A program made the position numbers and the translations under genes. A stretch of DNA of 41,891 bases from Fidelibacterota bacterium (GTDB lineage: Bacteria > Pseudomonadota > Alphaproteobacteria > Rhodospirillales > Rhodospirillaceae), in the NCBI GenBank assembly GCA_947472795.1, contig CANJBL010000021.1, positions 1 through 41,891 on the forward strand. The letters are read 5' to 3'. The notes below the pieces were generated by a model. That model was given only the letters and a program-made list of their open reading frames with translations. It had not been told where the DNA came from and searched no databases. This document shows positions 1,945 through 33,693 of this stretch, piece after piece. Numbering within the stretch: position 1 is the stretch's first letter; each line of letters begins with the position of its first letter.

Positions 1945-2745
1945 ATGAAGCAGGTCATTTTCACCGCCGACGATTTCGGGCTCTGCCCGGAAGTGAACGA
2001 GGCAGTGGAGTTGGGCCATACCAAAGGTGTGCTCAGCGCGGCGAGCCTGATGGTGGCCGCACCGTGGGCGGCAGATGCGGTGGAGCGTGCTCGCCGCCTG
2101 CCCGATCTCAAGGTTGGGTTACATCTCACGCTTGTCGACGGCACGGCGCTTCTGCCACCTGCGGAAATCCCTTCCCTTGTCGATGCCGCCGGCACATTTT
2201 CCAAGAATCTCGCCGCCAGCGGCGTGCACTGGTTTTTCTCAAGCGCTGCCCGGCGCGATTTGCGCAAGGAAATCCGCGCCCAGTTCGAAGCCTTCCGCGC
2301 CACCGGCCTCGCGCTCGATCACGTCAACACCCACAATCACATGCACCTTCACCCCACTGTGCTCAGCATGGTCCTGGACCTCGCGCGCGAGTTTGCGGTG
2401 CCGGGCATCCGTTTGCCCAGCGAACCGCCGAACGGCCTGCTCGCACCGTGGCTTGCTCTTATGAAGTCCCGCTTGCGCAACGCCGGCGTGAAATTTAACG
2501 GCACACTTGTCGGCTTGCACGCCAGCGGGCACGTCACCGAAGCCCGCGTACTCTCGGCGCTCGACAAACTTCAGGATGGCGTCACCGAGTTCTATTTTCA
2601 CCCCGCCACGGCGGCGACATCCCTGCTTGAAGCCAATGCGCCGGGTTATGACCGACGGGGCGAATTGCAAGCTCTCACCAGCCGGCCCGTGGCCCAGCGC
2701 CTGTCCGCCCTGGGCCTTAAAACCATTGGTTTCTCTGGGCTTTAG
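1945..2745 (+). CDS. hpnK: HpnK, YdjC/ChbG-family hopanoid deacetylase
   Basis: The 266-residue protein begins MKQVIFTADDFGLCPEVNEAV; the paired aspartates in TADDFG and the later VGLHLTLVDG and HVNTHNHMHLHP histidines are the metal-binding signature of the YdjC/ChbG carbohydrate deacetylase fold. In Burkholderia cenocepacia HpnK has been assigned to deacetylation of N-acetylglucosaminyl bacteriohopanetetrol, between HpnI and HpnJ. A long upstream extension of the frame is rejected because homology starts at ATG 1945, which follows AGGGGA with good spacing. It is the first gene of a rightward run. hpnI and hpnJ, which act before and after it, lie 6-9 kb away on the same strand. Confidence 0.88.
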   Translation: MKQVIFTADDFGLCPEVNEAVELGHTKGVLSAASLMVAAPWAADAVERARRLPDLKVGLHLTLVDGTALLPPAEIPSLVDAAGTFSKNLAASGVHWFFSSAARRDLRKEIRAQFEAFRATGLALDHVNTHNHMHLHPTVLSMVLDLAREFAVPGIRLPSEPPNGLLAPWLALMKSRLRNAGVKFNGTLVGLHASGHVTEARVLSALDKLQDGVTEFYFHPATAATSLLEANAPGYDRRGELQALTSRPVAQRLSALGLKTIGFSGL

Positions 2746-2833: not shown

Positions 2834-3694
2834 ATGGCTGTCACACTCACCTCCAACGGGGCTGCGATCCCGTTCACCGAAAACTATTTCGGCGACCTTC
2901 AGGCGACCGATCGCCGCCTGGAAAGCGACGCTCTACGCGCGCGCTATGAAGCCGACGGCTACGTGCTCCTGCGTGATATCGTGCCGGTGGAGGACGTGCT
3001 CAATCTGCGCGAAGCCTACCTCGGCCGTTTTGCGCCCGGCTTCTGCAAGAACGGTGATACCCGGCACGGCGCTTTCGGTGGTCAGATTCCGGCGAACCTG
3101 CCGCGTCATGGTCTCAAGGGTCATCCGGCTTACGACTTCGTGCGTTCCGACGCTTTCCACGCTTTCGCCGATCAACCCATTTTCAAAATCCTCGCCGAAG
3201 CATTCTTCGACGGACCCGCCGAGCGCATCCGCCGCACGCCGTTGCGCCACTTCGTGCCGGGCCGCAAGGTTGCCTCGCGCGCGCACATGGACCGCACTTA
3301 TATCGAGGGCGTTGAAGCCGACATCGTGACCGTTTGGGTACCGCTGGGTGACGGCCCGCTCATGGCTGGCGGCCTCGTGTATCTGGAAGGCTCGCACCGC
3401 GACACCGCGCTGGAAGATAAAGTGCGCACGGGCGCGCCGTCCGACCGCGCCAACGATAACCGTCCTCTGACGCACGATCTGAAGTGGATCTCCGACCGCA
3501 CCGGCCGCCGCTGGTTGGCCACCGATTACAAGGCTGGCGACGTGGTGGTGCACTCGCCCACCATTGTGCATGCCTCCACCGATCCCGGTGACACGGATTA
3601 CATGCGCATTTCCACGGATATCCGTTTCCGCCGCAAAGACAGCCCCGCCGATCCGCGGTGGGCGACCGATTGGTCCGCCGACGACGGTTACTAA
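2834..3694 (+). CDS. Phytanoyl-CoA dioxygenase (PhyH) family Fe(II)/2-oxoglutarate oxygenase
   Basis: A 286-residue protein with the PhyH iron site: H151-x-D153 in SRAHMDRTY and distal H246 in TIVHAST, followed twelve residues later by R258 (YMRISTD), the expected 2-oxoglutarate-binding arginine. The N-terminal YEADGYVLLRDIVP segment is also typical. Such enzymes hydroxylate lipids, sterol-like and secondary-metabolite substrates. It has no signal peptide, so it is cytosolic. ATG 2834 follows GGGGA at 2826-2830. It sits 88 bases after hpnK and 72 before hpnN, all rightward, so it is probably co-transcribed with hopanoid genes. The substrate is unknown; hydroxylation of a hopanoid or its side chain is an inference from context. 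Confidence 0.85.
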   Translation: MAVTLTSNGAAIPFTENYFGDLQATDRRLESDALRARYEADGYVLLRDIVPVEDVLNLREAYLGRFAPGFCKNGDTRHGAFGGQIPANLPRHGLKGHPAYDFVRSDAFHAFADQPIFKILAEAFFDGPAERIRRTPLRHFVPGRKVASRAHMDRTYIEGVEADIVTVWVPLGDGPLMAGGLVYLEGSHRDTALEDKVRTGAPSDRANDNRPLTHDLKWISDRTGRRWLATDYKAGDVVVHSPTIVHASTDPGDTDYMRISTDIRFRRKDSPADPRWATDWSADDGY

Positions 3695-3766: not shown

Positions 3767-6376
3767 ATGTTGAATAGGCTTGCCCGTGTTCTCGTCCGCC
3801 GCTGCCGCCGTCGCCCGGCGGTAACGACGTCCTTGTTCCTGCTGCTGATCGTGGCCGCGGTCATGTTCGCCATGAGCACGCTCGGCATGAACACAGATTC
3901 CGAAGCCCTGTTCGACCCCGGCTTGCCCTTCCGCGAAGCCGAAGCCGCCTTCGACAAGCAATTCCCCGGCGAGGCCAATCTCACGGTCGCCGTCATCGAC
4001 GGTCCCTCCGTCGCCGAAGCCCAGCGCGCCGCCGACAAGCTGGCCGCTGATCTGGCACCACGCATCGACATCTTTAACAACGTGCAGAACCCGACGGGCG
4101 GCCCCTTTTTCGCTCAGAACGGTTTACTCTATTTGAGCAAGGACGAACTCGACACGCTATCGACGGAACTTGCGCGGGCACAGCCGTTCCTGGGAGCCAT
4201 TGCCACCGACCGTAATGCACGCGGCCTTTTCCGCCTGTTCGATCTTGCCTTCACCGCAGCCGCCGAGGGCGACAACGCCGCCGGGGCCATCGCGCCCGCG
4301 GCCATCCAGGCTGCCGATGTCATAGACAAGATCGCCACCGGCAAACCCGCCTCCATGAATTGGGGCAGTCTGTTTAATGGGCTCTCACCCGCCGGCCAAT
4401 CGTCCCGCGCCATGGTGCTTGCACAGCCGAAACTCGATCTCACGGCTCTGGAACAAGGCGGTGAAGCCAGCTTCCTCATTCGCGAACGCGCAGCAGCGCT
4501 GGGGATTACGCCAGAACATGGGTTCCGCTTGCGCCTCACGGGACAAGTCCCGCTCTCTGATGAAGAGTTCTCGACCGTCGCACAAGGCACTGGCCTCTCC
4601 GGCATCGTGTCGGTGGTGCTCGTGGGCATTCTGCTGTTCCTGGCCCTGGGCTCAGGGCGCGTGGTCGCCGCCACGCTGCTAACCCTTGTCGCCGGGCTTC
4701 TGCTCACGCTGGGTTGGGCCGCGTTGACCGTCGGTGAACTCAACCTCATCTCCGTCGCCTTCGCCGTTATGTTCGTGGGCATCGCCGTGGATTTCGGCAT
4801 CCAGTTCTGCATGCGCTACCGCGCCGAGCGCCACGCCCGTGGCAGCAGTTCCTCAAGTCTCGACGATTCCCTCGACGCCGCCGGCGAAACTATGGCGCGA
4901 CCATTAGCGCTGGCAGCGGCGACAACGGCGCTGGGGTTCTTCTCCTTCTTGCCCACAAGCTATCGCGGCGTTTCGCAGCTCGGCATTATAGCGGGTGGCG
5001 GCATGATCATTGCCGCGCTGTTGAGCTTTACGCTCTTGCCCGCCCTCCTGCGCCTGTTCCGCGCGCGCGGTGAGCAGAGCGAAGTTGGCTATCGCTGGGC
5101 CACGCCCTTCAATCGCTTGATCATTAACCGGCGAGCGCCCGTCCTGGCTTTCGCTGCCTTGCTCGCTATCAGCGCGCTGGCCGTCCTGCCCAATCTCACC
5201 TTCGACTTCGATCCCTTGAAGCTCAAGGACCCGCACACGGAATCCATGTCCACGGCGCTGGAGCTGATGGATGATCCGCTCGTGAATCCCAACGCGCTCA
5301 ATGTGCTGGTAAAGACCCCCGAAGAAGCAAAAGCAATTTCTGAAAAACTCGGTGCCTTGCCGGAAGTCAGCCACGCCATCACGATCTTCGACGTGGTGCC
5401 CGAGGATCAAGATGACAAGCTCACCGCCATCGAGGATTTATCTTTCCTGATGGGCCCTGTGTTCCAACCGGCGACAGACAAGCCTGCGCCAACCCCCGAC
5501 GACATCATCGCTGCCGCCAAAAGTGCCCGCGATCATGCCGATGCTTACCTGAAAATGCCGAATGCCGCCGAGCCCCTGCGCGGCGCAGCCGAGAAGCTGG
5601 TCTCGGCCATCGATGCGCTGGTGCAGAAATCCGATCCCGCCACACTCGACAAACTGTCGGCAACACTTCTCACGGGTTTCGATGACGCTCTGAAGCCGTT
5701 GGAAGACGGCCTTTCCCCTGGCACCGTCACGCTCGACACTCTGCCGCAGTCCTTGCGCAACACCTTCATCGCCAAGGATGGGCGCTACCGTGTGCAGGCT
5801 TTCCCAAAAGCCACAGGCGCCAGTGCCGCCGATCTCACGCGCTTCCTAAAAGCGGTTCAGATCGTCGCACCTGATGCTATCGGCACGCCCCTCGTGATCT
5901 ATGAAAGTGGGCGCATCGTCACGGGCGCTTTCCGCACGGCTGGCGCTCTCGCGCTCATTGCCATCACGTTGGTTCTTTTTGCGGTGTTCCGCCGTCCCGC
6001 CGATGTAGCGCGCGTGCTGGCGCCGCTCCTCCTGGCCGCGTTGCTCACGCTCGGCACCTGCGCTCTGATCGGCTTCCCGCTCAATTTCGCCAACATCATT
6101 GCGCTGCCTCTGCTGCTTGGCGTCGGCGTTACCTTCCCTATCTACTTCGTCTCCGCTTGGCGCGAGGGCGAGGCCGCGCTACTGGCCTCGCCTGCCGGGC
6201 GCGGCATGCTCTACAGCGCGCTGACGACGGGTGCTGCCTTCGGCAGCCTTGCCATTTCCACGCACACGGGCACCGCGAGCATGGGCATCCTTCTCACAAT
6301 GGCGTTGGGATATACGCTGCTGGCGACGCTGATCGTCCTGCCCGCATTGCTAGGCCCGCCACCGCAGCAGGCGTAA
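3767..6376 (+). CDS. hpnN: HpnN, hopanoid-associated RND transporter
   Basis: The 869-residue protein has RND/MMPL architecture. One N-terminal helix (about 18-38) precedes a large periplasmic domain, a membrane block starts near residue 279 (VSVVLVGILLFLALGSG, ending in VDFGIQFCMRYRAE), a second periplasmic domain follows from about 480, and a final membrane block occupies about 725-865. Length and order match HpnN, shown in other bacteria to move hopanoids from the inner to the outer membrane. ATG 3767 has only a distant AAGG upstream. The stop TAA abuts the ATG of the following Sel1-repeat gene, so translation of the two is coupled. Confidence 0.92.
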   Translation: MLNRLARVLVRRCRRRPAVTTSLFLLLIVAAVMFAMSTLGMNTDSEALFDPGLPFREAEAAFDKQFPGEANLTVAVIDGPSVAEAQRAADKLAADLAPRIDIFNNVQNPTGGPFFAQNGLLYLSKDELDTLSTELARAQPFLGAIATDRNARGLFRLFDLAFTAAAEGDNAAGAIAPAAIQAADVIDKIATGKPASMNWGSLFNGLSPAGQSSRAMVLAQPKLDLTALEQGGEASFLIRERAAALGITPEHGFRLRLTGQVPLSDEEFSTVAQGTGLSGIVSVVLVGILLFLALGSGRVVAATLLTLVAGLLLTLGWAALTVGELNLISVAFAVMFVGIAVDFGIQFCMRYRAERHARGSSSSSLDDSLDAAGETMARPLALAAATTALGFFSFLPTSYRGVSQLGIIAGGGMIIAALLSFTLLPALLRLFRARGEQSEVGYRWATPFNRLIINRRAPVLAFAALLAISALAVLPNLTFDFDPLKLKDPHTESMSTALELMDDPLVNPNALNVLVKTPEEAKAISEKLGALPEVSHAITIFDVVPEDQDDKLTAIEDLSFLMGPVFQPATDKPAPTPDDIIAAAKSARDHADAYLKMPNAAEPLRGAAEKLVSAIDALVQKSDPATLDKLSATLLTGFDDALKPLEDGLSPGTVTLDTLPQSLRNTFIAKDGRYRVQAFPKATGASAADLTRFLKAVQIVAPDAIGTPLVIYESGRIVTGAFRTAGALALIAITLVLFAVFRRPADVARVLAPLLLAALLTLGTCALIGFPLNFANIIALPLLLGVGVTFPIYFVSAWREGEAALLASPAGRGMLYSALTTGAAFGSLAISTHTGTASMGILLTMALGYTLLATLIVLPALLGPPPQQA

Positions 6377-6882: not shown

Positions 6883-7494
6883 TTAGCCCTTCTTCGCATC
6901 TTCCGTCAGCTTGTTCATATGCGTGACGAGATCCGCCGGCGTACCGCGCGCCAGCACCGCTGAAAATTCCGCACGGCGCATGGCAAGCTGGCTGATGGCG
7001 CCGTCGAGATAAATGTCGAAGATCTTCCAGGCACCGTTCACTTTATGCAGCCGGTAATTGAGCAGCACCGGCGGTATGCCCTTCGGGTCAAGCCGCGTGT
7101 TCACCATCACATTGCCCTTGGCGTCTTCCTTTGACGTGTCCTTGGTGGTGAAAGTCTCTCCGCTAAAATCATCGAAGTTTCCGGCGTAGCTGGCCACGGT
7201 CCAGTCGCTGAAAGCCTTGATGACGTTGGCCTGATCGGTTTGTGGCATCTTCTGCCAGCCGGCCCCGGTCGAGATACGCGTCATGGATTCAAGGTCGAAG
7301 GCCTCTTTCACCACCGGATCGAGCTTGGCCCGGCGCCCTTCGAAGCCCAGGGCCTTACCGTTCTTCATATTGTCCAAGAGGGTGGCGTGCAGGCGCTCGA
7401 CCACCGCCGTCGGGCTATCCTCCGCAAGCACGGGCGCGCCCGCTCCGGCGACCAGGCCAAAAAACCACAATCCCATGAATAAGCTGCGAAACAT
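6883..7494 (-). CDS. hpnM: HpnM, MlaC/Ttg2-like periplasmic hopanoid-associated protein
   Basis: The 203-residue protein has a signal peptide (MFRSLFMGLWFFGLVAGAGA, cleavage after VLA near residue 24) and the MlaC/Ttg2D-like layout: AVVERLHATLLDNMK, a central ESMTRISTGAGW, a YRLHKVNGAWKIFDIYLDG motif and a helical tail. MlaC-type proteins ferry lipids across the periplasm, and HpnM is the version found in hopanoid loci. A GTG 15 bases upstream is in frame, but ATG 7492-7494 follows AGGGA at a better distance. It is encoded opposite to hpnN and divergent from the radical SAM gene, so it is regulated separately. Confidence 0.88.
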   Translation of the reverse strand: MFRSLFMGLWFFGLVAGAGAPVLAEDSPTAVVERLHATLLDNMKNGKALGFEGRRAKLDPVVKEAFDLESMTRISTGAGWQKMPQTDQANVIKAFSDWTVASYAGNFDDFSGETFTTKDTSKEDAKGNVMVNTRLDPKGIPPVLLNYRLHKVNGAWKIFDIYLDGAISQLAMRRAEFSAVLARGTPADLVTHMNKLTEDAKKG

Positions 7495-7674
7495 GGCGGT
7501 TTCCCTCACTTCGTCCTATACGGCCTCGGCATATATGTCATATACGAGACACCGCGCGATGCGGGGCGCATTTATACATCCAATCTGCGCGCGGTTGAAA
7601 TTCATCTGAAGACGTAACTTCCGGTATTGAGTTTCAGCCACAAGGGCTTAGCAAAAGAATCCGTCGGAATTGAG

Positions 7675-8835
7675 ATGGCCGAGATCGAACATACTGGCGC
7701 ACTGCGCGTTTTGACTAAACCGAGTGCCGCCAAGGCTAAAAGCGGCCAGAAATCCCCTGTCTCGCTGGATACGCTGCGCCTTGTCCTCGACAAAGGCGGG
7801 CCGGGCTTTTGCCAGATCGCCCTCAACAATGCCTGCAATGCCAATTGCGGCTTCTGCAATTTCGCCCGCGACAAATTTCCCAAGGCGCACTGGAAATACA
7901 TCGAACGCCAGGGCGGACTGGATGCCATCGACACCCTCTACAAAAACGGCGTGCGTTACGTCGTCTGGACCGGCGGCGAGCCGACGCTGCATCCCGACCT
8001 GATCGAATTCACGCAGCACGCCAGCGATCTCGGCATGAAGGTGATGCTCGTCTCCAACGCCGGCCTCTTCAAGCCCGACAAGGTCCGCGCGCTCTACGCC
8101 GCCGGCGTCTCCAGCTTCATCATTTCCGTCGATGCCGCCGACGTGGAAGCCCACGAGAACAATCGCGGCCTGCCCGGCGTGTGCGAGAAGATCAAAGAGA
8201 CCAACCGCGTGCTCGCCGAGCTCGGCGTGCAATCCACGGCGTCCGTCACCATGAGCCGCCTGCTCGACTACGACAAACTGCCGGCCTTCCTGAAGTCGCT
8301 GGGCTTCGGGGCTGTCACCTTCTCCTACCCGGTGACGGAACTTGGCTCGAACTTCATGGGCTTTTCCACCTCCGATCTCGTCAGCTACTCGAAAGAGGAA
8401 CTGCTGGAGGCCTTCGACAAGGTGAAGGCCATGAAGAAATCCGAAATCCACGTCCTTAACCCGACGGCGGGTCTCGACGAGATGAAGCGCTACATCGTCG
8501 GCGGCGAGCAAAAATTCCCCTGCCTCGGCGGCTACCGCTATTTCTATCTCGATTGGGATCTGATGCTCTGGCGCTGCCACTACTGGGCCGAGCCCATGTG
8601 CCACATCTCCGAGTTCGACGAGACCAAGACCGTGCGCGACGGCTGCACCAAATGCATGATCGACTGCTACCGGGACTCCTCGGTGATGCACCATGTCGGC
8701 GTCTCGGTGCACGACACCTATCAGGCGCTCAAGAAGGGTGACCTGGTCGGCGGCTTTAAGGCTTTGACCAAAAAAGGGAATTTAGGGTCACTAGGCTCGG
8801 TCATGGAAGAACTGCCCTGGCTCATCCGTTTCTGA
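7675..8835 (+). CDS. Uncharacterised radical SAM protein with SPASM-like C-terminal cysteines
   Basis: A 386-residue radical SAM enzyme. The [4Fe-4S]-SAM motif is C54-x3-C58-x2-C61 (NACNANCGFC), followed by WTGGEPTLHP, the GGE that contacts SAM. The C-terminal part has six more cysteines, C283, C301, C309, C324, C327 and C331, a spacing that suggests an auxiliary iron-sulfur cluster of SPASM/twitch type. It is neither HpnH nor HpnJ, both of which are present separately. An in-frame TTG lies 48 bases upstream, but ATG 7675 preceded by GGAA is preferred. hpnJ follows after 82 bases on the same strand, suggesting a joint role in side-chain chemistry. The reaction is unknown. Confidence 0.85.
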   Translation: MAEIEHTGALRVLTKPSAAKAKSGQKSPVSLDTLRLVLDKGGPGFCQIALNNACNANCGFCNFARDKFPKAHWKYIERQGGLDAIDTLYKNGVRYVVWTGGEPTLHPDLIEFTQHASDLGMKVMLVSNAGLFKPDKVRALYAAGVSSFIISVDAADVEAHENNRGLPGVCEKIKETNRVLAELGVQSTASVTMSRLLDYDKLPAFLKSLGFGAVTFSYPVTELGSNFMGFSTSDLVSYSKEELLEAFDKVKAMKKSEIHVLNPTAGLDEMKRYIVGGEQKFPCLGGYRYFYLDWDLMLWRCHYWAEPMCHISEFDETKTVRDGCTKCMIDCYRDSSVMHHVGVSVHDTYQALKKGDLVGGFKALTKKGNLGSLGSVMEELPWLIRF

Positions 8836-8917: not shown

Positions 8918-10369
8918 ATGATGAAAACTTTGTTCCTCAATCCTCCGTCCTTCGAAGGCTTCGACGGCGGCGCCGGCTCCCGCTACCAGGCCAAACGCGA
9001 AATCCGCTCCTTCTGGTATCCCACATGGCTCGCACAGCCCGCCGCCCTCGTGCCCGGCTCCAAGCTTGTGGACGCGCCCGCCAGTGACAAGACGCTGGAC
9101 GACGTGCTGCCCATGGCCAACGACTATGAACTCCTGGTCATGCACACCTCGACGCCGTCTTTCCCGTCGGACATCCGCGTCGCTCAGGCCTTCAAGGAAA
9201 GAAATCCGAAATTGAAAATCGGCATGATCGGCGCGCACGTCGCTGTCGATCCCTATCAATCCATGAAGGCCTCGACGTCTCTGGATTGGGTCGCCGGCAG
9301 CGAATTCGATTTCACCTGCAAGGAAGTCGCCGAGGGCAAGGATTACGCCGCCATTGACGGCCTCACCTTCCGTAACAAGGCCGGTGAGATCATCCGCAAT
9401 AAGCCGCGCGAACTTCTGCACAACATGGATGAGCTGCCGCACGTGGTGGACGTCTATAAGCGCGACCTCAAAATTGAAGATTACTTCATCGGCTATCTGA
9501 ACCATCCATACCTCTCGGTCTATACGGGCCGCGGCTGCAAATCGCGCTGCACCTTCTGCCTCTGGCCGCAGACCATCGGCGGCCACGTTTACCGCACGCG
9601 CAGCGTCGAACATGTGGTCGATGAGATGCGCAAGGCCAAGGAATACTTCCCGCAAGTGAAGGAATTCTTCTTCGACGACGACACCTTCACCGACGATCTT
9701 CCGCGCGCCGAAGAGATTGCCAAGGGCCTGGGCAAGCTCGGTATCATGTGGTCGTGCAATGCCAAGGGAAACGTGCCGCGCAAGACGCTGGAAATCTTCA
9801 AGGCCAACGGCATGCGCCTGATGGTGTGTGGCTACGAGTCCGGCAACCAGCAGATCCTGCACAACATTAAGAAGGGCATGCGCGTCGAACAGCTGCGCGA
9901 GTTCTCCAAGAACTGCCGTGAACTGGGCCTGAAGATCCACGGCACATTCATCGTCGGCCTGCCCGGCGAAACCAAGGAAACCATCCGTGAGACCATCGAC
10001 TTCGCCAAGGAAGTGAATCCTTACACACTTCAGGTCTCTCTCGCCGCCGCCTATCCCGGCACCTATCTCTACAACCAGGCCAAGCAGAACGGCTGGCTGC
10101 TGGAAGAAGATAACGGCGGGCGCCTGGTGGCCGAACAGGGCATTCAGGTCAGCTCCATCTCCTATCCGCACCTGTCCCACGAAGACATCTTCAACTCCGT
10201 GGAACAGTTCTACTCGGAATATTACTTCCGCCCCGGCAAGATCTGGGAGATCGGCGCCGAGATGCTGACCGACTGGCAGATGATGAAGCGCCGCCTGCGC
10301 GAAGGCGTCGAATTCGTGAAATTCCTCAACAAGCGCGAAAACCGCGAGCAGAAGAAGTCCGCGGCCTAA
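8918..10369 (+). CDS. hpnJ: HpnJ, radical SAM enzyme forming the hopanoid cyclitol ether
   Basis: The 483-residue protein belongs to the B12-binding-type radical SAM class. An N-terminal Rossmann-like region (about 1-140) precedes C207-x3-C211-x2-C214 (GRGCKSRCTFC), FFFDDDTFTDD and a TIM-barrel C-terminus with GTFIVGLPGE. It matches HpnJ, assigned in Burkholderia to ring contraction of glucosaminyl-bacteriohopanetetrol into the cyclitol ether. I do not see the DxHxxG motif that supplies the lower cobalamin ligand; DAPASD stands where it might be expected. ATG 8918 follows AAGGAAG with seven bases between; a second ATG is adjacent. Part of the rightward run ending at hpnL. Confidence 0.92.
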   Translation: MMKTLFLNPPSFEGFDGGAGSRYQAKREIRSFWYPTWLAQPAALVPGSKLVDAPASDKTLDDVLPMANDYELLVMHTSTPSFPSDIRVAQAFKERNPKLKIGMIGAHVAVDPYQSMKASTSLDWVAGSEFDFTCKEVAEGKDYAAIDGLTFRNKAGEIIRNKPRELLHNMDELPHVVDVYKRDLKIEDYFIGYLNHPYLSVYTGRGCKSRCTFCLWPQTIGGHVYRTRSVEHVVDEMRKAKEYFPQVKEFFFDDDTFTDDLPRAEEIAKGLGKLGIMWSCNAKGNVPRKTLEIFKANGMRLMVCGYESGNQQILHNIKKGMRVEQLREFSKNCRELGLKIHGTFIVGLPGETKETIRETIDFAKEVNPYTLQVSLAAAYPGTYLYNQAKQNGWLLEEDNGGRLVAEQGIQVSSISYPHLSHEDIFNSVEQFYSEYYFRPGKIWEIGAEMLTDWQMMKRRLREGVEFVKFLNKRENREQKKSAA

Positions 10370-10450
10370 AGCGATGAGGGCTTGATGTGGGGCCTTGCCG
10401 CCGCTGCGGCATCTTCTCGCATGTGAAGTCTGTGAGAGGCGTCCACATCC

Positions 10451-11653
10451 GTGCTGTCAGTTCCTGACCTTTCTACCGTCGCGCAAGGCGCGCTGCTGCT
10501 GCCGGTTATCGGCGGCAGCGTGTTCAGCTGCCTTGGCCTACTGACGGCGGCCCGCTTTTTTGGACGCCCCGTTGCCACCGGCACATATCGCCCGCCGGTC
10601 ACGGTGCTCAAACCCATCTACGGTTTGGACAAAGGCCTGGAAGAGAGCCTCGAAGCGCTTCTAAGCCAGGACTACTCCGATTATCAAATCGTGCTCGCCG
10701 TGCAGCGCACCGACGATCCGGCATTACCGCTGCTGCGTCGCCTCGCCGCCGAACATCCGGCGCGCGTCACATTGGTTGTGAAACCCAGCGAGCCTGTTAT
10801 CAACGGCAAGGTGCAGAACCTCGTCAACGCGCTCACGGCCGCGCGTCATGACCTGCTCATCATCAGCGACAGCGATGTGCGTGTGGCGCCAGATTATCTC
10901 AGCACCATGGTCGCTCCGCTGGCCGACAATAAAGTTGGCTACACCTGCTCGCTCTACCGCTCCATGAATGCCGACAGCTGGTTCGAGAAGCTGGAGATGC
11001 TCAGCTTCAACGCCGACTTCGTACCCAGTCTGGTCTTCTCCTACATCACCGGCGCGGCGGAATTCTGCATTGGCGCCTCCGTCGCTTTTCGCCGCAGCGA
11101 TCTTGAGCACACGGGCGGCATGGCGGCTCTGGGCGATTATCTTGTCGAGGACTATGAATTGGGCCGCCGCTTAATGAAGCTTGGCAAATCCATGGTCCTG
11201 ATGCCGCACACCGTCGATATCCTGGCCGATTTCCCCAGCTACCTGCGCTGGTGGAACCATCAGGTCTATTGGGACCAGAATACACGTGCTGCCAATCCAT
11301 TTGGCTTCGCCTGCACGATCCTCACGCGCTCCGTGCCTTTTGCGTTGCTGTTCGCTGGCGTGCGCGGATTCGATTTCACCGGCCTCAACGTGTTAGTGAC
11401 GGCACTCGGCATCCGTCTTGTCACTGCCGCTTGGTTCCAGGGCGCTTACCTCAAGGACCGCGAAGGCTTGCGCGCCCTCTGGTTGCTTCCCGTGCGCGAC
11501 ATGATCGCGCTGGCCTCCTGGTACGTCGCCATCACGCGCCGCTCCTTTGAATGGCGCGGACTTCGCTTCGGCCTCACGCGGGATGGCCGCATCCTGCCGC
11601 GCGATCCCACCGCAATGGCGCAGTCTCCACAGATTTCATCGGTCAAACCATGA
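10451..11653 (+). CDS. hpnI: HpnI, hopanoid glycosyltransferase (GT2)
   Basis: A 400-residue family 2 glycosyltransferase, membrane anchored at its N-terminus (LPVIGGSVFSCLGLLTAARFF) and carrying further helices after residue 280. Catalytic features are D140-x-D142 (ISDSDV) for metal and nucleotide binding, LVEDYELGRRL, and HQVYWDQNTR as the Q/RxxRW-like acceptor motif. Resemblance to ceramide glucosyltransferases is typical of HpnI, which adds N-acetylglucosamine to bacteriohopanetetrol. The start is GTG 10451, because an in-frame TGA lies 18 bases upstream and no ATG precedes the conserved region. Its TGA overlaps the ATG of the next gene (ATGA). Confidence 0.92.
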   Translation: MLSVPDLSTVAQGALLLPVIGGSVFSCLGLLTAARFFGRPVATGTYRPPVTVLKPIYGLDKGLEESLEALLSQDYSDYQIVLAVQRTDDPALPLLRRLAAEHPARVTLVVKPSEPVINGKVQNLVNALTAARHDLLIISDSDVRVAPDYLSTMVAPLADNKVGYTCSLYRSMNADSWFEKLEMLSFNADFVPSLVFSYITGAAEFCIGASVAFRRSDLEHTGGMAALGDYLVEDYELGRRLMKLGKSMVLMPHTVDILADFPSYLRWWNHQVYWDQNTRAANPFGFACTILTRSVPFALLFAGVRGFDFTGLNVLVTALGIRLVTAAWFQGAYLKDREGLRALWLLPVRDMIALASWYVAITRRSFEWRGLRFGLTRDGRILPRDPTAMAQSPQISSVKP

Positions 11654-12648
11654 GCCACGTTCCCCATATCCTCGTCACCGGCGGCGCCGGCTTCATCGGC
11701 AGCCACACTGTCGATGTTCTCATGAACCGCGGTTACGCGGTCTCCGTGCTGGATAATCTCTCCACCGGCTACATGACGAACCTGGAACGCTGGGAAAAAC
11801 ATCCGCGCTTTCATTTCGTCAACGCCGACATCACCGGCGAGCTGACCAGCGCCTTCGCGCGCATCGTCGCGCATTCTGGGCGCATTGAACGCATCGCCCA
11901 CTTCGCGGCGCAGACCGCCGTGCCGGTGTCCATGGACGATCCCGTCGGCGACATTCAGGCTAACCTTTGCGGCACCGCGCGCATTCTGGAATACGCGCGG
12001 CACAATAAAGTGACCAAGGTGTTCTTTGCTTCTTCGTCCGCCATCTATGACGACGACGCGCCCGTACCCGTGAGCGAGGAATCTCGTGCACGGCCCATGT
12101 CGCCCTATGGCATCGACAAGTTGGCGGTGGAGTTCTACCTCGACTACTACGCCAAGCTTTACGGTCTCACCTACACGGCCTTGCGTTTCATGAATGTCTA
12201 TGGCCCACGCCAAGACCCCAAGAGCTGGTACTCGGGCGTCATCTCGATCTTTCTCGACCGCGCCGTAACGGGCCAGCCCATCACCATCTTCGATGATGGC
12301 GAGCAGACCCGCGATTTCGTCTACGTTACCGACGTAGCTGAAGCCGTGGCGGATACGCTCATGAGCCGTTCCGGCGACAACGCCATCATCAACATCGGCA
12401 CGGGCGTGGAAGTGACCATCAATCAGCTTACGCGCACCATCCTGGATCTCGCCGGTTCGGCCTCGACTTTACGCTACGAGCCGCCGCGCCCTGGCGATAT
12501 CCGCCGCTCCGTCACGACCATGGAGAAAGCCGTGGAACTTCTCAATTTTCACCCGCGTGTGGCTTTGCGCGACGGCCTGCACGCCACGCTGGCGTGGGTA
12601 CGCCAGGACAAAACCCGCTCCGCCGCCCGCTCGGGTTCGGCTGCCTGA
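11650..12648 (+). CDS. NAD-dependent sugar-nucleotide epimerase/dehydratase coupled to hpnI
   Basis: A 332-residue extended short-chain dehydrogenase of the UDP-sugar 4-epimerase kind. The Rossmann motif is TGGAGFIGSH, the active-site region has ASSSAIYDDD and SPYGIDK (YxxxK), and RFMNVYGPRQ plus DFVYVTDVAEAV are family blocks that contact the sugar nucleotide. The frame is open further upstream, but ATG 11650 overlaps the hpnI stop by four bases and precedes the Rossmann motif directly. Tight coupling to HpnI suggests it makes or interconverts the UDP-sugar that HpnI transfers, for example UDP-GlcNAc/UDP-GalNAc; the substrate is inferred from position only. It is distinct from HpnA at the other end of the block. 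Confidence 0.85.
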   Translation: MSHVPHILVTGGAGFIGSHTVDVLMNRGYAVSVLDNLSTGYMTNLERWEKHPRFHFVNADITGELTSAFARIVAHSGRIERIAHFAAQTAVPVSMDDPVGDIQANLCGTARILEYARHNKVTKVFFASSSAIYDDDAPVPVSEESRARPMSPYGIDKLAVEFYLDYYAKLYGLTYTALRFMNVYGPRQDPKSWYSGVISIFLDRAVTGQPITIFDDGEQTRDFVYVTDVAEAVADTLMSRSGDNAIINIGTGVEVTINQLTRTILDLAGSASTLRYEPPRPGDIRRSVTTMEKAVELLNFHPRVALRDGLHATLAWVRQDKTRSAARSGSAA

Positions 12649-12652
12649 AGCC

Positions 12653-13666
12653 ATGGCGGGAAAATTTCTGAAGCTGATCACCCTCGGCGGTGGCCTCGCG
12701 CTGTTCATCTGGCTCTTGAACGAGGCGGACCTCGGCAACGTCGGGCGTAATCTCGCAGCCGTGGGCTGGCTTGGCGTTAGCGCCATTGTCGTGACCTTCT
12801 CCGTTGGCTTCTTTTCCGATGTTGCCTCCTGGCTTCTGATGTTCCGTACCTTCCGCGCTTCGCCGCTGTGGGCATGGCGGCTGCTTCTAGTCCAAATGGT
12901 GGGCGAAGCCCTGAATGTGGTGACGCCCTTTGGATCGCTCGGCGGCGAACCCTTCAAGGCCATGTTGCTCAAGCGCCATTATGATGTGTCTTTACGCGAA
13001 GCCACGGCCTCACTCCTGCTGATCCAGACCGTCAACAGCCTCGCCATGGTGCCGTTCATCATCACCGGTGCGCTCTTGATCGCCGATCGCGGCATCCTGC
13101 CGCCGCTGATGTCCAAGATTGTGCTGTTCGCCGCCCTGTGGATCGGCACTTTCATGGTGCTGGTCTATGCCGCCCTTCACATGCGTGCCTTGGTCTTGCT
13201 CCAGCAGCGCCTGGGCCAAAGCCGTTTCGCCGCGCGGCTGGGTCGCGGACTTTCCATCATGCGCGATATCGAAGAACACCTCTTCACGTTCGTGCGCCAT
13301 ACGCCCGGACGTTTCGCGACGTCGTTCCTGTTCGCCTTCTTCAACTGGCTGTTCGGCGCCTTCGAGATGTTCCTCATCTTCCATTTCCTGGGCCACCCCA
13401 TCAGCCTCTCTGAAGCCTGGATGGTCGAGGCCACCGTCGTGCTCGTGCGCGCCGCGACTTTCTTCATCCCCGCCCATCTGGGTGTTCAGGACGGTGCCAT
13501 TGCGCTCATGGGCCAGGCCCTGGCCGGCTCGCCCGAGATCGGCCTATCGGTGGCGCTCTTACGCCGCGGGCGCGAACTGGCGTGGACGGCGGTGGGGCTT
13601 GCCATTGGCGGCTGGTTCAGCGTCAAGGACACCTCTGCCGGCACACCCGAGCGCGAAATCCCCTAA
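12653..13666 (+). CDS. hpnL: HpnL, UPF0104/lysyl-PG-synthetase-like membrane protein
   Basis: A 337-residue multi-helix inner-membrane protein. The block VGEALNVVTPFGSLGGEPFKAMLLKR is the hallmark of the UPF0104/AglD family (flippase-like domain of lysylphosphatidylglycerol synthases), and FIPAHLGVQDGAIALMGQAL is a second conserved block. HpnL members lie in hopanoid clusters and have been suggested to help membrane placement of modified hopanoids; the mechanism is not settled. ATG 12653 comes four bases after the epimerase stop. It closes the rightward hpnJ-hpnI-epimerase-hpnL run and is followed by a 246-base gap containing a GC-rich hairpin. Confidence 0.88.
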   Translation: MAGKFLKLITLGGGLALFIWLLNEADLGNVGRNLAAVGWLGVSAIVVTFSVGFFSDVASWLLMFRTFRASPLWAWRLLLVQMVGEALNVVTPFGSLGGEPFKAMLLKRHYDVSLREATASLLLIQTVNSLAMVPFIITGALLIADRGILPPLMSKIVLFAALWIGTFMVLVYAALHMRALVLLQQRLGQSRFAARLGRGLSIMRDIEEHLFTFVRHTPGRFATSFLFAFFNWLFGAFEMFLIFHFLGHPISLSEAWMVEATVVLVRAATFFIPAHLGVQDGAIALMGQALAGSPEIGLSVALLRRGRELAWTAVGLAIGGWFSVKDTSAGTPEREIP

Positions 13667-20381: not shown

Positions 20382-21524
20382 CTAGAACACGCCGGCGGCT
20401 TTGGCCGCCTTGACGCCGTCGATAACCTGCTGCGCTTGCGCATCCGTCATGCTGGCGAAGATCGGCAAACACATCTGGCGGCCACAAGCGATTTCCGACT
20501 GTTTGAGATCACCCGGATCGAGGTGACGCAGAACTTCATTTTTGTGCAGCGGCACTTCATAGACTTCGCCACTGCAGTTCACGCCACGCTCGTCGCGCAG
20601 CCAAGCCTTGGCCTTCTTGCGGTCAACACCTTCGGGCAGCATGACGACGTATTTGTAGTAGTTGGACACGCATCCTTTCGGTGCAGCCAGTGGCCGCACA
20701 CCGTTTGCACCGCCGCCTAGCGCCGCGTCGTACAGGGCCGCGATGCGCTGACGCGCTTTGATCATGGCCGGAAGATTCCGCAAGTGACGCAAGCCAATCA
20801 CCGCATGCGGTTCGGAAAGACGCCAGTTGTAGCCCATGCGGACGTGCGTGTTCTGCAAGAAGCTGGCCTTGCCTTGGTCGCGGTAGAGTTTGGCTTCCGT
20901 CGCCATGCGGTCGTCACCGGTAACAATGACCCCACCTTCGGCACTCGTCATCACCTTGGTGGGATAGAAGCTGAATGAGCCGGCGAGACCGAAAGAACCG
21001 GCGTGCGCGCCATTCAACGTCGAGCCTTGCGCGTGCGCGGCATCTTCCATCAGCCAAATGTTCTTGCTCTTGGCGTATGCGGCAATCGCCGGCATCTCGG
21101 CGGTGATGAAGCCGGCGATATGCACGATCATGATGCCAACAGTTTTAGGCGTCATGCGGCGCTCGATCTCGGCAAGGCTTGTCGATAGCGTGGCCACATC
21201 CGTATCCATCAATACGGGCCGTCCGCCGGCGGCAATCACAGCCGCGGCCGTCGCGAAGAAGGTATTGGCAGGCACCAGCACATCCTTCCCGGTGACGTCC
21301 ATGGCGCGCAGCATGATCTCGAGCGACGCCGTGCCGCTGTTCACCGTGATGGCGTGTTTCGCGCTTAGGCTCGCTGCCAGTTCGCGCTCGAATTCCTCGC
21401 CGAACGAGCCCAGCGTCAGGCGCCCGCTTTCCAGCACTTCTTTGATGCGCTCGGCGATCCACTCCCGGTCTTCGGGCGAGAAATCAATGCGCGTCGGCGG
21501 AACAGCGGGAAAAGCGTTGGGCAT
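20382..21524 (-). CDS. DegT/DnrJ/EryC1-family PLP aminotransferase
   Basis: A 380-residue sugar aminotransferase type. Visible family features are TVNSGTASLEIMLRA (cofactor phosphate), VPANTFFATAAAV, MEDAAHAQGS (D161 under the pyridine ring) and SFSFYPTKVMTSAEGG with K190 as the Schiff-base lysine. Enzymes of this family put an amino group on keto-sugars or cyclitols. ATG 21522-21524 follows GAAGGA. It is divergent from hpnC across a 111-base gap and coupled to the MOSC gene. A role in amino-sugar or aminocyclitol decoration of hopanoids is an inference from position; it is not HpnO, which belongs to the class III aminotransferases. Confidence 0.87.
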   Translation of the reverse strand: MPNAFPAVPPTRIDFSPEDREWIAERIKEVLESGRLTLGSFGEEFERELAASLSAKHAITVNSGTASLEIMLRAMDVTGKDVLVPANTFFATAAAVIAAGGRPVLMDTDVATLSTSLAEIERRMTPKTVGIMIVHIAGFITAEMPAIAAYAKSKNIWLMEDAAHAQGSTLNGAHAGSFGLAGSFSFYPTKVMTSAEGGVIVTGDDRMATEAKLYRDQGKASFLQNTHVRMGYNWRLSEPHAVIGLRHLRNLPAMIKARQRIAALYDAALGGGANGVRPLAAPKGCVSNYYKYVVMLPEGVDRKKAKAWLRDERGVNCSGEVYEVPLHKNEVLRHLDPGDLKQSEIACGRQMCLPIFASMTDAQAQQVIDGVKAAKAAGVF

Positions 21525-31878: not shown

Positions 31879-32574
31879 ATGGCAAAAATCGGCATCATCA
31901 CCGGGCTACAATTCGAAGCGGATATTCTGCGCGCGGAAGCGAAGAGAATGCCCCACGGAGAGCGGCCTATCGTGGTCTGCCACGGCATGGGTCGCGCCCG
32001 GGCCCGGGCGGCTGCCGAGGCCGCCGCCGCTGAGGGGGCTACCGCTCTGCTCAGTTTCGGCATCGCTGCCGGGCTCGATCCGCGTCTTGAGGCCGGAGAT
32101 GTCATCGCCGCTGCCACGATCCATGACGGGCCCGCGACGCTTGCAGGAGACACGGCTTGGACCGCACGCCTGCACGAGGGCTACAAAGATGCGCTGCGCA
32201 TCACGCGCGGCATTATTGTTCGCTCAGACGTCATCATTGGAACAGCACTTGAGAAGACCAATGCCTTTAAGGCGACCGGCGCATCTGCAGCCGATATGGA
32301 AAGCTACGGCGTGGCGGAAGCAGCAGCAGCGCTGAATTTCCCCTTTGCCGCACTACGGGCAATCGCCGACACGGCCAGCGATGATTTGCCGCCGACGGCG
32401 ATGTCAGCAGCCACACCGGATGGACGCATCAGCATGATGAAGTCCGCGTTCGGTGCGCTGACGCATCCCGGCGAAACCCCAGCGCTTATGGCGCTGGGAC
32501 AGCGCACCAGCGCCGCGCGGCAGAGTCTAAAGCTGCTAGCCCGCCTTGGCTTGACGCGGCGCTTCTTCGTGTAG
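31879..32574 (+). CDS. hpnG: HpnG, adenosylhopane nucleosidase/phosphorylase
   Basis: A 231-residue protein of the nucleoside phosphorylase/nucleosidase fold. [13 protein letters not shown] (E13) opens the chain, [15 protein letters not shown] and [20 protein letters not shown] are purine nucleosidase blocks, and [12 protein letters not shown] (M140-E141-S142, ribose contact) precedes [10 protein letters not shown] (D164, base contact). HpnG releases adenine from adenosylhopane to give the ribosyl side chain. No Shine-Dalgarno sequence precedes ATG 31879. Its last 39 bases overlap the 3' end of hpnH on the other strand, an unusual convergent layout for two enzymes of consecutive steps. Confidence 0.9.
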
Positions 32575-33693
32575 AGCCGCCGTCAGAGTCTTCACCTGTT
32601 TCTCGAAGACGTATTGCGCCGGGCGCTGATTGGCGAGCGGGATCTCCGGTGCCATGGGCCCTTCGGTCGCGGGGCCAGTCAGCATGACCTTCAGCGCGCG
32701 CAACGGGTGATCGGTGGTCGCGATGACGGCCGTCGGCTCGAAACCCGAATGCACCATGCAGTTGGCGCACTTTTCATAATTGCCGACGCCGTACTCATCC
32801 CAAGCCGTGGTCTGCATCAGTTCCTTGAAGCTCTGGACGTAGCCTTCACCCACCAGATAGCAAGGCCGCTGCCAGCCGAAGACGTTGCGCGTGGGGTTAC
32901 CCCAGGGCGTGCACTTGTAGGTCTGATTGCCGGCGAGGAAATCGAGATAGAGGCTGGACTGGTTGAACACCCAGGGCTTCTTGCCGGCCTTCTTGCGTTC
33001 CTTGCCCAAGCGGAAGATGGAGCGGAAGAGTTCTTTCGTTTTGCCGCGCGAGAGGAAGTGATCCTGCACCGGCGCGCGTTCGTAGGCATAACCCGGCGCC
33101 ATGGTGACGCCCTCAACGCCCAGCTCCATGGCATAGTCCAGGAACTCAGCCACTTTCTCGGGCACCGCGTTGCTGGTGAATAGCGTGCAGTTAAGGGTGA
33201 CGCGGAAGCCGCGTTTCACCGCTTCCCGAATGGCTTCGACAGCGCGGTCGAAGGTACCTTCCTGCGAGACGGCATGATCGTGCTCTTCCTTGAGGCCGTC
33301 GAGATGCACCGACAGGGTCAGGTACGGGCTCGGCGTGAACTGATCGAGCTTCTTTTTCAAGAGCAGCGCGTTGGTGCAGAGATAGACGAACTTCTTGCGC
33401 GCAACGATGCCTTCCACGATTTGCACGATCTCCTTGTGCAGCAGGGGCTCGCCGCCGGGAATGGAGACGACCGGCGCGCCGCACTCGTCCACGGCCTGGA
33501 AGCACTCTTCCGGCGAGAGGCGCTTATTGAGAATGGAATCCGGATAGTCGATCTTGCCGCAACCGGAGCAAGCGAGGTTGCAGCGGAATAGGGGCTCCAA
33601 CATCAGCACCAGCGGATAGCGCGCATTGCCGGCGAGCTTCTGCTTCATAATGTAAGCGCCGACGCGGAACTGTTGGATCAAAGGTACGGCCAC
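32536..33693 (-). CDS. hpnH: HpnH, adenosyl-hopene transferase (radical SAM)
   Basis: A 385-residue radical SAM enzyme with C38-x3-C42-x2-C45 ([16 protein letters not shown]), [11 protein letters not shown] and the C-terminal [18 protein letters not shown] cysteine block typical of HpnH. It adds the 5'-deoxyadenosyl radical to diploptene to form adenosylhopane, the first step of side-chain building. The start is GTG 33691-33693, preceded by AAAGG; conservation begins at [10 protein letters not shown]. It follows ispH by 21 bases on the same strand and converges with hpnG. The product passes to HpnG. Confidence 0.95.

Follow-up and report, generated by a model that had tools for sequence, protein, structure and literature searches.

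The window, that is, the whole 41,891-nucleotide stretch analysed, carried at 7675-8835 on the plus strand an open reading frame with an ATG start and zero internal stops, encoding a 386-residue radical SAM enzyme of an unnamed family; gene and protein are called X hereafter. X possessed both the CX3CX2C motif and the core domain of the radical SAM superfamily (PF04055, residues 51-189, 70.8 bits, cut-off 29.5). Each cysteine listed in an earlier note on this DNA was found in the sequence, namely C54, C58 and C61 of the motif and six towards the C-terminus (C283, C301, C309, C324, C327 and C331), together with a variable C46 and a nearly invariant C170. In an alignment of 49 sequences including the window's X, with identities down to 37%, C54, C58, C61, C283, C301, C324, C327 and C331 were present in all 49, C170 in 47 and C309 in 46. 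The divergent relatives in L086 and L152 (37-40% identity), which had neither C170 nor C309 and stood apart in the tree, may have another function; the relative in L087 (41% identity), with an in-frame TAG, was excluded from alignments and trees. X is under purifying selection and is an intact gene, more than a chance reading frame, with a pN/pS of 0.15-0.18 against four relatives and a GC3 of 0.82, and its relative in L005 begins at the same methionine in the alignment.

Based on profile matches, X headed the run proposed in the earlier note, in the same order. It was followed on the plus strand by hpnJ, encoding the cyclitol-ether-forming radical SAM enzyme (8918-10369; TIGR03471, 803.1 bits, cut-off 577.6), an hpnI-like glycosyltransferase gene assigned by tree to a separate clade (10451-11653; TIGR03472, 307.3 bits, cut-off 310), a GalE-type sugar epimerase gene (11650-12648; PF01370, 204.5 bits), and a gene for an hpnL-like flippase-type membrane protein (12557-13666; TIGR03476, 134.4 bits, cut-off 195.65; PF03706), the true start of which is probably closer to 12645. 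The epimerase start was placed at an internal methionine before the NAD-binding motif in a frame that opens at 11551, and its best solved relatives were UDP-glucose 4-epimerases. Upstream of X lay genes for the HpnK deacetylase (1945-2745, plus strand; TIGR03473, 346.9 bits, cut-off 232.6), a PhyH-type dioxygenase (2834-3694, plus; PF05721, 46.2 bits), the HpnN transporter (3767-6376, plus; TIGR03480, 949.7 bits), a Sel1 protein, and an MlaC-type protein (6883-7509, minus; PF05494, 118.2 bits) in the hpnM place, from which that name is taken. Beyond hpnL, the window contained a DegT/StrS-type aminotransferase gene linked to X in the window's lineage (20382-21524, minus, start inferred; PF01041), hpnC, a GT2/GT21 glycosyltransferase gene, dxs, a second squalene/phytoene-synthase-type gene in the hpnD place, a flavin amine-oxidase-type gene in the hpnE place, a squalene-hopene cyclase gene, and hpnH (32536-33693, minus; TIGR03470, 550.6 bits over 32617-33693, cut-off 225). 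As HpnH (at about 32.6-33.7 kb on the minus strand) and HpnJ are both encoded in the window, X is the third radical SAM gene of this hopanoid cluster, as the earlier note had it. Solved relatives of the window's DegT included scyllo-inosose-type aminotransferases, with perosamine synthase being closer.

The PhyH-type dioxygenase gene between hpnK and hpnN (2834-3694) was also found in seven related X loci. It is a candidate for the hydroxylase of penta- and hexahydroxylated hopanoids, the gene for which is stated as not known in section 32 of PMC12583986. None of the PhyH-type, epimerase and DegT genes was found in any of the 20 fetched HpnJ loci without X from the window's own class (stretches of 11-20 kb, from 20 of the 21 such genomes, all but G196).

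Family assignment and predicted fold of X

Among the best 25 of 46 NCBIfam matches and in Pfam, no family beyond the generic radical SAM core fitted X. The best NCBIfam match was the cytosylglucuronate decarboxylase BlsE (TIGR04466), with 71.8 bits against a cut-off of 400, which leaves X outside that family. HpnJ (TIGR03471, cut-off 577.6) was absent from the best 25 of 46 matches and, as the weakest of these scored 34 bits, any HpnJ score for X lies far under its cut-off. X and HpnJ are thus both radical SAM enzymes of the same branch, adjacent, and fused in two assemblies, but HpnJ has its own curated family and, in the fused copy, a detected B12-binding domain, whereas X has a C-terminal cysteine set.

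The earlier note had placed X among SPASM/twitch enzymes. The SPASM motif comprises seven cysteines (CX9-15GX4C-gap-CX2CX5CX3C-gap-C; PMC6231123), while the twitch domain is described in the same source as a beta-hairpin by cluster cysteines, a helix and a cysteine pair, holding one auxiliary cluster. X departed from the SPASM motif in having six C-terminal cysteines, a leucine instead of the glycine five residues before C301, and the spacing C324-X2-C327-X3-C331 with no later cysteine. Its AlphaFold2 model (44 sequences, mean pLDDT 84.0, pTM 0.84) contained a beta-hairpin at 289-300, flanked by C283 and C301 in the manner of twitch and SPASM domains, as well as the pair C324/C327; the helix after the hairpin was shorter than the canonical twitch helix, and the loop carrying C324, C327 and C331 was less certain, with pLDDT below 50 at 328-330. 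The SPASM part of the proposal was therefore given up, and twitch-like, in the sense of these features, is the most that can be claimed: cysteines and model together suggest a twitch-like C-terminal domain.

Structural searches with the model returned BlsE, SkfB, viperin, SuiB, DesII, PqqE and anSME among the best 50 Foldseek matches; BtrN was not among these 50. BlsE, which acts on a sugar substrate (PMC3715490), was the best match in both sequence and structure (PDB 7vob; phmmer 1.7e-16, Foldseek 1.7e-14), with the sequence match confined to the radical SAM core. SkfB, PqqE, anSME and SuiB shared the overall fold in Foldseek but act on peptides or proteins, and X lacks the seven-cysteine SPASM motif. 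BtrN, the twitch enzyme by which an aminocyclitol alcohol is oxidised in butirosin biosynthesis (PMC9012708), resembles X in the hairpin between two cysteines and in the later cysteine pair and, by analogy, would resemble it in acting on such an alcohol; X differs in two extra cysteines (C309 and C331) and in a supposed lipid-linked substrate. The SkfB paper warns that fold or function in the SPASM/twitch subfamily is hard to predict via similarity networks (PMC6231123).

Distribution of X and its linkage to HpnJ

X carriers were retrieved in one scan of species genomes by short exact peptide patterns, an approach by which some carriers will have been missed, and which yielded 49 loci at 43-89% identity. 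Their bins were titled, among others, Rhodospirillaceae, Marinimicrobia, Gammaproteobacteria, Deltaproteobacteria, Okeania, Hydrocoleum, Trichodesmium, Verrucomicrobia, Planctomycetota, Omnitrophota and Armatimonadetes, and such titles can be wrong. Those of the Marinimicrobia-titled bins (L004-L006, L008, L009, L012, L043 and L051) look so: their X was 71-89% identical to the window's and mostly intermixed with that of Rhodospirillaceae-titled bins in the tree.

HpnJ was found above its curated cut-off in 40 of the 49 carrier genomes and as long or partial pieces in seven others (G002, G024, G028, G032, G034, G042 and G043), leaving two without a proper HpnJ (G045, with a match at 1e-5 only, and G049, with none). 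At E<=1e-30, HpnI was present in 43 of the 49 carriers (missing in G020, G022, G026, G027, G032 and G049) and HpnK in 42 (missing in G012, G014-G017, G033 and G049); with that many carriers having an HpnK match, X was rejected as a general HpnK substitute. Plasmids gave zero X matches at E<=1e-20, and 17 plasmid-collection records carried HpnJ at 61-65% identity.

The earlier note had set co-occurrence of X with hpn genes beforehand as one point on which its proposal could fail. This was run in three samples without refutation, carriers nearly always possessing HpnJ. In the window's own class (289 genomes, taken to be Alphaproteobacteria), X was present in four genomes (>350 bits, next match 75 bits) and HpnJ in 24; three of the four had both (G000, G233 and G288, the last with a divergent X containing an in-frame stop), and G161 carried X but no HpnJ. 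Of 141 genomes in the class to which the verrucomicrobial locus G039 belongs, 11 had X and 19 had HpnJ above the cut-off, with all 11 carriers among the latter. For the phylum of the cyanobacterial locus G015, the counts were 7 and 26 of 194, with six of the seven carriers overlapping and G556 as the exception, without a proper HpnJ. Relatedness being ignored, Fisher p was 0.0019 for the own class (0.017 without the own genome) and, without the centre genome, 7.6e-11 for the class of G039 and 1.4e-4 for the phylum of G015. HpnJ occurred without X in 21 of 24, 8 of 19 and 20 of 26 genomes, respectively; with X thus missing from 49 of the 69 genomes that have HpnJ, it is an optional and not a general partner of HpnJ. 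A 100-row HpnJ tree, from which L145 and L178 (too short) and L109 (a copy of the window) were left out and in which L179-L181 (all three under the HpnJ cut-off) were kept, showed the X label as clustered (13 changes compared to a shuffled mean of 33.6) yet patchy.

HpnJ lay within the same fetched stretch (3-21 kb) in 23 of the 49 X loci. In L042, a single 830-residue reading frame comprised HpnJ at residues 1-469 and X at 471-827, and the same join was present in L045, from a different but related assembly, where the front of HpnJ was broken up. Runs of hpnH-hpnJ-X were found in L040, L041 and L046, as was the order hpnI-hpnJ-X-hpnK-like in L020, and L239 carried X, hpnI, an EamA-type gene and hpnK as one run. 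A GalE-type epimerase gene followed slightly downstream of hpnI in all 10 own-class-like X loci reaching that far.

A natural deletion of the cyclitol-ether branch was observed in L051 (genome G049, a single MAG), at about 5.1-6 kb and 10001-10408, where remnants of hpnK and X remained: X was cut at about residue 117, hpnK was a 25-residue remnant, and hpnI, hpnJ, the adjoining epimerase gene and hpnL were not found, with no runs of N in the stretch. This locus retained hpnA, hpnN, genes in the hpnM, hpnC and hpnD places, and a complete DegT gene (82% identity).

The aminotransferase-linked subset

The butirosin pathway of BtrN includes a DegT-type aminotransferase, and the distribution of the window's DegT was inspected across X carriers. 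Every one of the 16 distinct genomes in the alpha/gamma X clade had an ortholog (56-100% identity), among them G049, whose X is truncated, and G013, whose DegT copy is partial; G013 and G233 had identical match coordinates and were counted once, reducing 17 handles to 16 genomes. The 21 HpnJ genomes of the own class that lack X yielded no ortholog (best-scoring match 178 bits at 37% identity, maximum identity 38%), and neither did G161 and G288 with their divergent X. Outside the alpha/gamma/delta and Trichodesmium-type genomes, the search covered G018, G039 and G040 in addition to G161 and G288; G039, the one verrucomicrobial carrier searched, had only distant DegT proteins (33-34%) and no window-type DegT, so DegT cannot define the role of X. 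Moreover, as DegT is complete in L051 although X and HpnI/J/K are lost or remnant there, it may serve another step.

The aminotransferase of the Okeania/Trichodesmium-type genomes shared 49-51% identity with its counterpart in the deltaproteobacterial L014 and 37-40% with the window's DegT. It followed hpnI, directly or one reading frame away, in L266, L267 and L268, with one frame between hpnI and DegT in L268, where the contig end cuts DegT, and L014 showed the order hpnJ-DegT-FAD-hpnI-X. HpnK had no match at 1e-30 in the genomes of these four loci. A DAO-type FAD oxidoreductase gene accompanied DegT, hpnI or hpnJ in L014 (7265-8617) and L266 (9920-11482), in the latter directly after the aminotransferase gene.

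In the HpnI tree, from which L198 was left out (HpnI match <250 residues), 16 alpha/gamma/delta/Trichodesmium-type X carriers grouped in a single clade (100/100) that excluded 19 HpnI from own-class genomes lacking X, which were 28-37% identical to the window's HpnI. These lineages were likewise united in the X tree (100/97), where G619 and G556 joined them. Another 17 fetched HpnI, mostly from verrucomicrobial carriers, fell outside the HpnI clade and were 27-33% identical to the window's.

Proposed role of X in hopanoid biosynthesis

In the published scheme, the cyclitol ether is made by HpnI, HpnK and HpnJ (PMC12583986), with HpnJ forming the ether as the last of the three steps (Schmerk 2015 as cited in PMC12583986). 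A literature search over titles and abstract openings, with few subscription papers, found no description of an X-like hopanoid enzyme, and the association and fusion of X with HpnJ suggest an undescribed extra step in hopanoid synthesis. X very probably acts in this HpnI/J/K branch, in which HpnJ builds the amino-sugar-like headgroup. Among the two targets named in the earlier note, a hopanoid side chain or the cyclitol, the second is favoured by the recurring neighbours HpnI, HpnJ and HpnK and the first is less so. As HpnJ often occurs without X, the ordinary ether can probably be made without it, and X would be expected to alter the product or the route.

By analogy with BtrN, X would most likely be a dehydrogenase acting on the cyclitol-ether headgroup, the leading but tentative reading, to which we give slightly less than an even chance. 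A 5'-deoxyadenosyl radical generated on the C54/C58/C61 cluster would abstract hydrogen at a carbinol carbon, either of the cyclitol itself or of its glycosyl precursor, and the second electron would pass to an auxiliary cluster on C283, C301, C324 and C327, perhaps with C331, leaving a ketone. In the subset carrying DegT/StrS, this ketone would then be aminated, while carriers without DegT would retain it or a product formed later. Against this reading, the DAO-type FAD oxidoreductase of L014 and the Trichodesmium group could provide the ketone instead. Also against it stand the absence of BtrN from the best 50 Foldseek matches, the short helix and low-confidence loop of the model, the distant DegT proteins of G039, the complete DegT of L051, and the few X carriers with no proper HpnJ. 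A second, HpnK-independent route to amino-cyclitol hopanoids, in which the separate HpnI clade, HpnJ, X, DegT and sometimes the FAD oxidoreductase would introduce nitrogen by oxidation and transamination, and which Trichodesmium would use, appears rather unlikely at present. Such a DegT route would matter most in the Trichodesmium-titled genomes without an HpnK match at 1e-30 and, if true, would extend the logic of aminoglycoside biosynthesis to a membrane lipid.

Instead of oxidising its substrate, X might return the hydrogen on the other face of the cyclitol or sugar, perhaps from C170, as a radical epimerase for which NeoN is a comparison, and so give a stereoisomer of the cyclitol ether. 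The conservation of C170 in 47 of 49 aligned sequences agrees with this, as do the later-eluting isomers of the cyclitol-ether and glucosamine forms reported from cultured Alphaproteobacteria (PMC12583986 section 19), and an epimerase, requiring no DegT, would suit the carriers without one; it leaves DegT without a role, however, and we regard it as somewhat improbable. The HpnJ-X fusion, the separate HpnI clade of the DegT-linked carriers and the epimerase gene that comes after hpnI in all 10 own-class-like loci reaching it would also fit X and HpnJ jointly contracting the ring of a different glycoside made by that HpnI, rather than acting in sequence. Yet the HpnI of the 17 mostly verrucomicrobial carriers resembled the window's no more closely than did the HpnI of own-class genomes without X, and the published scheme has HpnJ make the ether as the final step, so that joint contraction is distinctly unlikely.

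Oxidation of the hopanoid side chain, for example at C-32 of bacteriohopanetetrol as a first step to penta- and hexahydroxylated forms, would supply the 32-oxo intermediate proposed, with no gene named, in section 32 of PMC12583986, but the recurring neighbours are HpnI, HpnJ and HpnK, and the PhyH-type dioxygenase encoded in this cluster is the simpler choice for a hydroxylase; we consider side-chain oxidation quite improbable. That X is a bystander of the cluster unrelated to hopanoids is hardly credible: the HpnJ genomes without X in all three samples and the 26 of 49 X loci with no HpnJ in the fetched stretch would be expected of one, but linkage recurs in several phyla, the two genes are fused, and they are lost together in L051.

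Inference also led us to reject two further roles. One was methylation of the cyclitol ether of Tistlia consotensis, from which a methylated form is reported (PMC12583986 section 19): Pfam gave no B12 domain in X, and no methylase family came near its cut-off. X as a general maker of hopanoid double bonds was set aside because unsaturated forms come from acetic acid bacteria and Burkholderia (PMC5516240).

Returning to a headgroup step by X, a widespread extra partner of HpnJ implies that some cyclitol ethers either undergo further modification or arise by a different route. This bears on their reading as biomarkers, some hopanoids serving as geological biomarkers; an unsaturated cyclitol ether attributed to Trichodesmium is used as a biomarker for marine nitrogen fixation (PMC5516240). 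The X family also provides a small set of genes to examine for hopanoids whose origin is not known, the isomers and the methylated form of the cyclitol ether (PMC12583986 section 19) being examples.

Small EamA-type membrane proteins, possibly lipid flippases, recurred beside X, hpnI or hpnK as single, paired or double-length genes (L042, 11097-11862; L045, 9008-9881; L017, 6089-6889; L239, 4895-5719).
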